Positions 51,743 to 60,504 of a DNA stretch of 64,000 nt are shown piece after piece (within the stretch, counting starts at the first letter, position 1; each line of letters starts with the position of its first letter). The stretch covers positions 1 through 64,000 of the forward strand of contig CACGDY010000001.1 of the NCBI GenBank assembly GCA_902571915.1, in the 5' to 3' direction. The DNA is from an uncultured Pelagibacteraceae bacterium (GTDB lineage: Bacteria; Pseudomonadota; Alphaproteobacteria; Pelagibacterales; Pelagibacteraceae). The notes below the pieces were generated by a model. That model searched no databases. It had not been told where the DNA came from and saw only the letters and a list, made by a program, of their open reading frames with translations. The position numbers were made by a program, and so were the translations under genes.

Positions 51743-52303
51743 ATGTTTAGAAATATAAATTTTTTAAAATTATTAAATTCAATTTTATTGATTATCTCTT
51801 TATTCTTAATTACAAATTGCTCAAATAATAGTTCTATGAAACCTGAAGATTTTAAAAATAAAGAACCAAAATTGATAATTGAGGAATATTTATCTGGAAA
51901 TGTAAAAGCCTGGGGTGTTCTTCAAAATAGATCTGGAAAGGTAATGAGACAATTTTCTGCTGATTTAGATGGAAAATGGGATGGTAATAAATTAATTTTG
52001 GATGAAAAATTTAATTGGGATGATGGAGAAATTCAGAATAGACAATGGCAAATAATTAAACTTGATGAAAATAATTATGAGGGAACAGCTGGCGATGTAG
52101 TTGGAAAAGCTAAAGGTTATTCTTACGGATCAGCTTTCAAATTTGAATATGTTTTATTGGTTCCAGTTAAAGGAAAAGAAATTAAAATTAGTTTTGATGA
52201 CTGGATATTTAAGCAAGATGATAGAGTAGCAATTAATAGGGCCACCATGACAAAGTTTGGTTTTAAAGTCGCTGAACTCACAGTTGTTTTTGTCAAAGAT
52301 TAA
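51743..52303 (+). CDS. DUF3833-family lipoprotein
   Basis: The 186-residue protein has a lipoprotein signal (lipobox LITNC) and the DUF3833 pattern: IEEYLSGNVKAWGVLQNRSGK, split here, DGEIQNRQWQI, GDVVGKAKGY and FDDWIFKQDD. The family is regularly the last member of the flavoprotein-DUF1365-Cfa cluster and probably sits in the outer membrane, perhaps helping lipid modification or transport. It starts two bases after the Cfa stop. Confidence 0.88.
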   Translation: MFRNINFLKLLNSILLIISLFLITNCSNNSSMKPEDFKNKEPKLIIEEYLSGNVKAWGVLQNRSGKVMRQFSADLDGKWDGNKLILDEKFNWDDGEIQNRQWQIIKLDENNYEGTAGDVVGKAKGYSYGSAFKFEYVLLVPVKGKEIKISFDDWIFKQDDRVAINRATMTKFGFKVAELTVVFVKD

Positions 52304-52319
52304 ATATTATAATTTTTGA

Positions 52320-52368
52320 GATAATGATTATCATTCTCAAAAAAAATGTGAGATTGATTATCATTCAC
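52320..52368. promoter_or_regulatory. Two Fur-box-like sites upstream of a cysteine-rich microprotein gene
   Basis: GATAATGATTATCATTCTC at 52320-52338 matches the classical Fur consensus at 17 of 19 positions by hand count. A second, weaker copy, GAGATTGATTATCATTCAC, lies at 52350-52368 (14 of 19). They share GATTATCATTC, are 30 bases apart, and precede the gene at 52414. The first site also sits in an inverted repeat (TTTTTGAG...CTCAAAAA) that could fold in RNA. Confidence 0.7.
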
Positions 52369-52413
52369 TCATATTTTTATTGTAATTAAAATTTTAAAAA
52401 TTATTATTTTATC

Positions 52414-52596
52414 ATGGATATACAAAATTATAGTTGTAAGAAATGTGGACTTACAGTTTCATCTATCTGCTCTAAATGTGATAGGGTGATAGATGTTAAA
52501 GTTCTTGATAATGGGTGCATAGTTCAAAAAACTAAATGTGGTGACTGTGCAAATGTTCCTGTTATCAAAGATGTTTGTTCTCAACAAAAAGGTTAA
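52414..52596 (+). CDS. 60-residue cysteine-rich metal-binding-type microprotein
   Basis: The protein has eight cysteines in 60 residues, at 8, 11, 19, 22, 35, 42, 45 and 55, including three CxxC pairs (CKKC, CSKC, CGDC). This is the layout of small zinc-ribbon or iron-binding proteins. No named family is recognised. Fur-like sites upstream suggest control by iron or another metal. There is no signal sequence, so it should be cytoplasmic. Possible roles include metal storage, a metal-responsive regulator subunit or a redox carrier; none is proven. Confidence 0.75.
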   Translation: MDIQNYSCKKCGLTVSSICSKCDRVIDVKVLDNGCIVQKTKCGDCANVPVIKDVCSQQKG

Positions 52597-52618
52597 TATT
52601 TATCTTATCAAAAATTAT

Positions 52619-53377
52619 TTATTTTTTTTGATATTTTGTAAGTTTTCCAATTATTGCAAAATATAACTTAATTGGTAATAAACTCAAAATTTTCAAAATC
52701 ACAGTTAAAGATTTTGGAAAATGAATTTCAAAGACATCTCTATTTACTAGTCCGTCGTATATTTTATCAGCAGCATAGTCAGAAGATTTTAGAAAGGGCA
52801 TTTTGAAATCGTTTTTGTCAGTCATTGGTGTTTTAATAAACCCCGGAGATACTAAGCACACTTTCACATTATATCTCTTAAAATCAAAATATAAACTTTC
52901 AGCAAGATTGTTAAGTGCAGATTTTGATGGACCATATCCAGTTGAATTGGGTAATCCTCTATAACCAGCAATTGAGGAGACAATTGAAATAGTTCCTTTT
53001 TTTTTGTTTTTAAAATATTCTTCGACAGCTTTAATACTATTTAGTGTTCCAAAAAAATTCACTTTAAAGACATTTTCTATTTGGTCAACGTCTATATCCT
53101 TTTCTCTTTTTGGATCCCATGTACCAGTTGAAAAAAAACATATATCTATATTATCAAATTTATCTCTTATTTGTTCAAAGACCTTCTTACATTGCAATTT
53201 ATCAGTAACGTCAAGTGGAAAACTATGAATATTTTCATAATCATTTGAAATTTCTTTAATCAAATTTTCTCTTCTTGCCGAAATGATAACATTCCAACCT
53301 TCTTTAGAAAACTTTATAGCTAAAGCCTTTCCTATACCCGTGCTTCCACCTGTTATCCAAATTGTTTTTTTATTCAT
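52619..53377 (-). CDS. Short-chain dehydrogenase/reductase
   Basis: The 252-residue SDR protein has the nucleotide motif TGGSTGIGKALA and the catalytic Ser, Tyr and Lys in SIVSSIAGY and GYGPSKSALNN. Its C-terminal region ends with a hydrophobic stretch (SLLPIKLYFAIIG), suggesting membrane association. SDR genes of this type often accompany the Cfa/DUF1365 cluster. It is divergent from the TspO gene with a very short shared start region. Confidence 0.88.
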   Translation of the reverse strand: MNKKTIWITGGSTGIGKALAIKFSKEGWNVIISARRENLIKEISNDYENIHSFPLDVTDKLQCKKVFEQIRDKFDNIDICFFSTGTWDPKREKDIDVDQIENVFKVNFFGTLNSIKAVEEYFKNKKKGTISIVSSIAGYRGLPNSTGYGPSKSALNNLAESLYFDFKRYNVKVCLVSPGFIKTPMTDKNDFKMPFLKSSDYAADKIYDGLVNRDVFEIHFPKSLTVILKILSLLPIKLYFAIIGKLTKYQKK

Positions 53378-60108: not shown

Positions 60109-60504
60109 TTAGAATATAATTTTATTATATGCTTTGAAAGGTAACAAAATACATTCTTTTCTTTTGAGGTTTTTTGCTTTAAATAATCTTCCTAAAGATT
60201 TCCATTTTTTTTTTAAAGCAAAATTTTTTTGTTCAAAATATGACTCTGCATCCTTGCATAAATTATTTATTATATCTTTTGATTTATTAATTGAAATTTT
60301 AGATAGGAGACTTGCAGAAGCTTGACAATATACACATGATTTTTCCTGATATGCAAAATCAACAATTTTATTTTTTTCTATTATAAGTTTAATTTGAATT
60401 TCATCTCCACAAATTGAATTTTTCAACCTGGAAGTATGTGTATGATTATCTAAAGATTTATTATTTTTATTATTTGCAGCTATTTTTATTATATCAAGAT
60501 CCAT
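60109..60504 (-). CDS. IscU/SufU-like iron-sulfur scaffold protein
   Basis: The 131-residue protein has the three-cysteine pattern of NifU-N/SufU scaffolds: SICGDEIQIKL (with the conserved Asp), SCVYCQASASLLS and RKECILLPFKA. A fourth cysteine is present in CVYC. It would hold a nascent iron-sulfur cluster or bind zinc. No cysteine desulfurase is encoded in the window, and its partner is an HPP membrane protein, so it may serve a specialised role. Sequence between the cysteine motifs is rich in Lys and Asn. Confidence 0.82.
   Translation of the reverse strand: MDLDIIKIAANNKNNKSLDNHTHTSRLKNSICGDEIQIKLIIEKNKIVDFAYQEKSCVYCQASASLLSKISINKSKDIINNLCKDAESYFEQKNFALKKKWKSLGRLFKAKNLKRKECILLPFKAYNKIIF

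Follow-up and report, generated by a model that had tools for sequence, protein, structure and literature searches.

The window analysed here is a stretch of 64,000 nucleotides from an uncultured bacterium of the Pelagibacteraceae, whose genome assembly comprises 722 kb and is 57% complete. Positions 52414..52596 of its plus strand encode a protein of 60 residues with eight cysteines, the gene being delineated by its open reading frame, its homologues and dN/dS. Upstream lies a DUF3833 gene, and a convergent short-chain dehydrogenase gene is found on the other side. An earlier note on this DNA had described such a protein at this site in a marine bacterium and had named a lack of cysteine conservation as a possible refutation. 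The open reading frame is indeed present, the marine host belongs to SAR11 (Pelagibacteraceae), and the eight cysteines occupy identical offsets in every one of the 78 distinct strong homologues obtained from the loci fetched. The median dN/dS of the microprotein gene is 0.07, as determined from 2202 pairs among 79 distinct coding sequences, with the remainder of the 3081 pairs excluded as saturated or too close. The gene is under strong purifying selection and is a real conserved gene. All eight cysteines are kept in the remotest relatives aligned, which come from genera g4, g7 and g9 (50-62% identity), and K10, G12, S20, D27, G34, V37, K41, D44, P49, K52 and D53 are also invariant in these relatives.

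The search for homologues in marine bacteria, proposed at the outset, found relatives across SAR11 genomes. A relative was encoded in 298 of 337 matching stretches, and the 80 that we kept are titled Pelagibacteraceae, Pelagibacterales or Candidatus Pelagibacter. Of the 101 genomes of the genus sample, 41 gave matches, comprising 39 with the strong form and 2 with only a second family (see below), while 82 of the 197 genomes of the family sample matched and the strong form occurred in genera g1, g3, g4, g7 and g9; absence calls are uncertain where genomes are incomplete, many being 55-90% complete. Strong matches in the order sample (247 genomes) were confined to family f1, and in the phylum sample (398 genomes) the strong form was seen in the window genome only, the other three matches belonging to the second family. 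An RNA element was rejected, as Rfam gave no match across 52200-52700.

The protein had been said to belong to no recognised family, and this holds: no Pfam or NCBIfam model reached its curated cut-off, PADLOC gave no match and the best PHROGs match had an E-value of 0.41. The best Pfam match was DZR (PF12773), with E-values of 0.1 for the window protein and, among 38 relatives, 0.00097 at best; the corresponding cut-off of 27.3 was reached neither by the window protein (13.2 bits) nor by a g7 relative (18.8 bits). The weak matches cluster on zinc-ribbon models, and two CxxC knuckles are present in the microprotein. An AlphaFold2 model was weak (mean pLDDT 66.3, about 75 for the first 40 residues; pTM 0.44) and contained four short strands, and a fold search with it gave no significant match (best E 3.6). 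We found no Pfam match to rubredoxin, and the cysteine pairs are separated by 7 residues; in rubredoxins, this spacing is far longer. The NCBIfam rubredoxin-like domain NF045720 matched only weakly, in a g4 relative (E 0.55). Moreover, there was no match to a metallothionein family and no C-x-C motif in the sequence, nor was there a match to the Bfd [2Fe-2S] domain. The microprotein is probably a zinc-ribbon-like metal protein, as predicted from its sequence, and is likely to bind metal.

The second family (A3) consists of unlabelled proteins of 61-64 residues of the form M[AS]TYECSKCGMSVNATC...SKCP..GKIKSPLCCG, found in SAR11 and in two genomes of another class. A3 is homologous to the microprotein over columns 3-48 (profile-profile probability 97.9, E 5.7e-13), and its profile retrieves the window gene at E 3e-5. 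The paired cysteines lie at the same places in both families, whereas A3 has other C-terminal ligands and other neighbours. By eye, most of 10 aligned A3 members have a neighbouring histidine in place of one C-terminal cysteine, in keeping with a zinc site. In two g9 genomes (G109 and G122), one 13-mer resembling the box (12/13 and 11/13) lies 18 bp ahead of the A3 start codon; the other 9 of 11 members reach at most 10/13 upstream, for one of which the region examined spans just 18 bp, and none of the 11 shows a double box at -61. As its neighbours vary, A3 was rejected as a key to function. A DUF2061-like gene was seen by eye upstream of the A3 member of G109, which represents a different genus. 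A phage origin of the microprotein was likewise rejected, since phages gave no match and viral contigs, searched with A2 and A3, gave none either.

Upstream of the microprotein gene, the earlier note had pointed to two Fur-box-like elements. Both are confirmed and conserved among relatives: a distal Fur-type box, GATAATGATTATCATTCTC, spans 52320..52338 and a proximal one, GAGATTGATTATCATTCAC, spans 52350..52368 at a distance of 30 bp, both listed without a strand. Downstream of the boxes, the window promoter reads TTGTAA-16-TATTAT on the plus strand, with the -35 element at 52380..52385 and the -10 element at 52402..52407. The upstream regions of strong homologues share a TTGAAA-like -35 and a TATTTT-like -10 element at -12 to -7, again downstream of the boxes; T at -34 is found in 119 of these 121 regions, A at -11 in 107 and T at -7 in 108. 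With a conserved -10 element at -12 to -7, transcription should begin at the ATG itself. Thus, the predicted transcription start is the A of the ATG, and the transcript is probably leaderless.

Within the window alone, a box search allowing up to 3 mismatches yielded 5 matches where 2.17 (sd 1.76) were expected, a number that was also attained in 14 of 100 shuffles; four of the five matches represent the two boxes, on both strands. As this count lies within chance, it is not decisive alone, and conservation is what decides. We employed 121 distinct upstream regions of strong homologues, taken from loci with 140 bp upstream, which are related sequences and not independent events. A 13-mer matching AATGATWATCATT was present at 11/13 or better in 120 and at 12/13 or better in 101 of the 121 regions, the sole exception having a best box of 10/13. 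Among 758 upstream regions of other genes at the named loci, the same thresholds were reached in 29 and 2 cases, and among 6050 shuffles in 344 and 30. Chance boxes were rejected on the basis of both controls. The position of the proximal 13-mer is fixed, starting at -61 relative to the ATG in 87 regions and at -62 in 25 (112 of 121 together). A distal box was found at 11/13 or better in 99 of 121 regions and at 12/13 or better in 79 (176 and 13 of 6050 shuffles, respectively); at 10/13 or better the number rises to 114, a threshold that 1203 of 6050 shuffles also pass, so that chance is appreciable here. At this last threshold, the distal box mostly lies 30 bp (72 regions) or 50 bp (19 regions) further up, i.e., at intervals of roughly one helical turn. 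Four other genera, g3, g4, g7 and g9, also have the box. In g3 and g4 it is likewise found at -61, while the best match in g7 is 11/13 and starts at -67. In g9 it lies at -82, by eye approximately one more helical turn away from the -35 element, and one of the two g9 loci has an AGGAG-like sequence ahead of the ATG.

The same 13-mer, at 12/13 or better, is located within 150 bp upstream of sfuC in all 23 genomes with SfuC, of which 11 carry the microprotein gene and 12 do not; among the 28 genomes searched, SfuC was not found at E 1e-60 in G000, G009, G054, G109 and G122. In the available parts of a study on HTCC1062, sfuC is a published iron-limitation marker, and it and suf stand out among the genes that this condition induces (PMC2864753). 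A 2026 paper on iron in HTCC7211 also treats the sfu genes, as far as its accessible text goes (PMC13271415). Fur-type iron control of the microprotein gene, by Fur or its paralogue Irr, is thus a well-supported prediction from these upstream sequences, and the proposal of Fur-type control in the earlier note gains support from the shared box. The near-perfect sfuC box in 23 of 23 genomes contrasts with published accounts, of which we cite the parts available: a classic Fur box was reported absent from HTCC1062 (PMC3090418), and 7-1-7 boxes, which the majority of SAR11 genomes were described to have ahead of FTR1 and Fe(III) transporter genes, were reported missing in HTCC7211 and three other SAR11 (PMC4771312).

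Both the window genome and G151 also have the box ahead of iscR-suf, upstream of the iscR-suf promoter. In G151 this box is doubled at 31 bp, and a box was additionally seen just upstream of hemB (G151:C1:962784-962796). Neither the iscR-suf nor the hemB box was present among the sites inspected in G103 or G135 at up to 1 mismatch. With the microprotein excluded, we inspected 44 genome-wide sites of at least 12/13, from G103, G151, G135 and one place of G000, of which 35 fell within open reading frames and 9 between them; a few of the 35 are due to an overlong called start, e.g., sfuC in G135. The number of box sites per genome was 13-17, as compared to 6-13 for the reversed pattern. Because most sites lie within open reading frames and the reversed pattern is also frequent, we do not claim single matches such as those at nuoA-like, ccmH-like and blh-like genes, which were assigned by eye.

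Three of four carriers searched encode three Fur-family proteins (Fur, an Irr-like paralogue and a weaker third), while two were found in the incomplete window genome and two in G109, which is without the strong form of the gene. Judging from the sequence, the regulator may equally be Fur or Irr, which are not distinguishable here. The boxes may serve to repress or to activate: Fur can do either depending on where it binds, according to the available text of PMC11353095. By eye, the sfuC box overlaps the likely promoter, whereas the microprotein boxes sit upstream of theirs, and induction under iron limitation can therefore not simply be assumed. We slightly favour higher expression under iron limitation.

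To describe the genomic neighbourhood, we compared 90 loci, of which 80 lie on named contigs, 9 in other genomes and one in the window. They are mostly best-scoring and often near-alike relatives, so that the following counts are not independent. The gene occupies several different sites. One arrangement is irr-katG-AspH-DUF2061 followed by the gene, and the katG cluster is found in 42 of the 90 loci. In another, the gene follows cfa-DUF3833 as in the window (DUF3833 in 21 of 90), and in 16 of 90 it follows a UPF0047 gene. Genes for a DNA photolyase (20/90), a redoxin (17/90) and a glutathione peroxidase (3/90) are also found nearby, and at the g4 loci the neighbours are by eye thiolase-like and deacetylase-like genes. 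DUF2061 directly adjoins the gene in 48 of 90 loci, 35 times upstream and 13 times downstream. In 3 of the 90 loci and in G060, ArsP_2, a predicted metal exporter with 10 transmembrane segments, directly precedes the gene in the place of DUF2061. The window itself contains genes for DUF1365, a cyclopropane-fatty-acid synthase, DUF3833, TspO and MsrA between 49804 and 58287, reminiscent of a gene set for light or oxidative stress. Further downstream, on the minus strand, a NifU_N-domain gene (60109-60504) adjoins what by eye is an HPP-family-like membrane protein gene.

The irr locus offers a new lead. The gene that we take to be irr was assigned through an HHH motif and its place beside a fabA-like gene; the only Pfam match of its product is FUR. 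Between the same flanks, this locus has rubrerythrin along with a CCG-domain protein and DUF3501 in some genomes and katG, frequently accompanied by AspH and DUF2061, in others. The exchange site is bounded by irr and a gene that by eye is SH3-like. We scored 76 genomes, 72 of them with irr seen, on the basis of at least 70 irr places among the matches listed; six carriers (G078, G089, G060, G081, G002 and G071) were added via the position of the microprotein or DUF2061 gene, which favours linked cases. Among the 72 loci so assembled from the matches listed and the added carriers, 45 are of the KatG type, 26 of the rubrerythrin type and 1 of neither. The microprotein gene accompanies 35 of the 45 KatG-type loci (10 are without it; 33 carry it when G078 and G089 are left out), none of the 26 rubrerythrin-type loci and not the single remaining one. 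That the gene goes with the KatG-DUF2061 module and is missing where the rubrerythrin module is found is suggestive, absence being uncertain in the incomplete genomes. In the available parts of PMC2864753, rubrerythrin of HTCC1062 was up 1.57-fold under iron limitation.

Across the genus sample of 101 genomes, the gene in its strong form and DUF2061 are each present in 39 and occur together in 36; G002, G060 and G071 have the gene without DUF2061, and G026, G052 and G065 the reverse. Separate contigs or a distance above 30 kb divide the two in 10 of the 36; the window genome shows the same arrangement. On a tree of 69 genomes built from three flanking proteins, which as locus neighbours may travel with the locus, the gene changed state at least 11 times and the locus type 7 times. 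Tree-based independent pairs for the gene and DUF2061 gave 7.6 of the same and 0.0 of the opposite direction with 2.4 showing no difference (median p 0.008), while the pairs for the gene and the KatG type (3.9, 0.0 and 1.1, respectively) were not significant (p 0.125). When carriers with adjacent DUF2061 were excluded, DUF2061 retained 4.0 pairs of the same versus 0.2 of the opposite direction (p 0.125) and the KatG type 1.7 versus 0.0 (p 0.5); linkage or clade may thus account for part of the association. The data are suggestive of a link between gene and module beyond ancestry, mainly with DUF2061, which for unlinked copies is tentative.

We consider it slightly on the probable side that the microprotein gene belongs to the SAR11 Fur regulon and encodes a metal-dependent helper of KatG-type peroxide defence. 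A Fur-family dimer, either Fur or Irr, would bind two helically phased operators upstream of a sigma-70-type promoter, and operator occupancy would set expression by iron. The probably leaderless transcript would yield a 6.5-kDa, presumably cytosolic protein with two putative four-cysteine metal sites, C8-C11-C19-C22 and C35-C42-C45-C55. This protein would most likely adopt a zinc-ribbon fold and act as a small adaptor or redox protein dependent on metal, beside the irr-katG-AspH-DUF2061 set as neighbourhood and co-occurrence suggest. A bolder version, which we hold to be unlikely, is that SAR11 swap two iron-linked peroxide modules at one locus, with the microprotein as a mobile, leaderless helper of the KatG module that Fur or Irr activates via the phased operators. 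If true, the protein would supply a metal-linked function needed by the KatG module and not by the rubrerythrin module.

The position of the boxes upstream of the -35 element at a fixed helical phase, as opposed to the promoter overlap seen by eye at sfuC, would also agree with activation by Fe-Fur when iron is plentiful, the product being a rubredoxin-like Fe(Cys)4 protein or an iron buffer. Position-dependent activation by Fur is known (PMC11353095) and ferritin was reported absent from HTCC1062 (PMC2864753), both in the parts of these papers available. Nonetheless, the iscR-suf boxes of G151 and the window genome are upstream as well, and suf rises in iron-limited HTCC1062 according to the same portion of PMC2864753; this would argue against such activation, and the lack of a Pfam rubredoxin match and the weak NF045720 match (E 0.55, g4 relative) against the rubredoxin-like product, so that we regard this reading as rather unlikely. 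Zinc-cysteine centres that open on oxidation, making the protein a thiol redox switch acting as chaperone or adaptor under peroxide or light stress, would fit the genes for KatG (42/90), redoxin (17), DNA photolyase (20) and glutathione peroxidase (3) encountered at different sites, but neither the thiolase-like and deacetylase-like neighbours seen by eye in g4 nor operators of the iron type, and appear improbable. Eight cysteines in 60 residues and the third, weakly matching Fur-family protein in three of four carriers searched might point to a metallothionein-type zinc buffer under Zur. We judge this very improbable given a box that is the same as that of sfuC, no C-x-C motif and no metallothionein match. 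Finally, the DNA is AT-rich and the box count of the window within chance, as would be expected of a chance open reading frame, chance boxes or a small RNA. The dN/dS of 0.07, the boxes at 12/13 or better in 101 of 121 regions against 2 of 758 controls and the missing Rfam match reduce this to a negligible probability; moreover, loss of the frame or the box was not seen in the strong homologues fetched, apart from the one region with a best box of 10/13.

SAR11 are among the most abundant cell types of the ocean, much of which is iron-poor. A conserved protein of metal-binding type that belongs to no family, stands under an iron box and is tied to the choice of peroxide defence may provide an entry to iron homeostasis in a bacterium that reportedly lacks both ferritin and siderophore-related proteins. 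Searches of the open-access literature, at the level of titles and abstract openings, listed no paper describing the gene. The published SAR11 Fur-box targets, the Fe(III) ABC transporter and FTR1, have the same kind of box, and the available parts of that paper name transport genes without mentioning the microprotein (PMC4771312). Among known proteins, the microprotein resembles zinc-ribbon domains (PF12773 DZR and relatives; archaeal Nop10, 2apo) in its CxxCG...CxxC knuckles and weak matches; it differs from them in falling below the curated cut-off, and C35-C42-C45-C55 has no significant match. Bfd, the bacterioferritin-associated ferredoxin, is also cysteine-rich, Fur-controlled and about 60-70 residues long; its cysteine spacing is unlike that of the microprotein, which has no Bfd match, and HTCC1062 is reported to be without ferritin. 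Compared by description, the microprotein shares a tiny size and apparent Fur control with FbpABC of Bacillus subtilis, which are small basic, Fur-controlled iron-sparing proteins, and is set apart from them by its eight cysteines.
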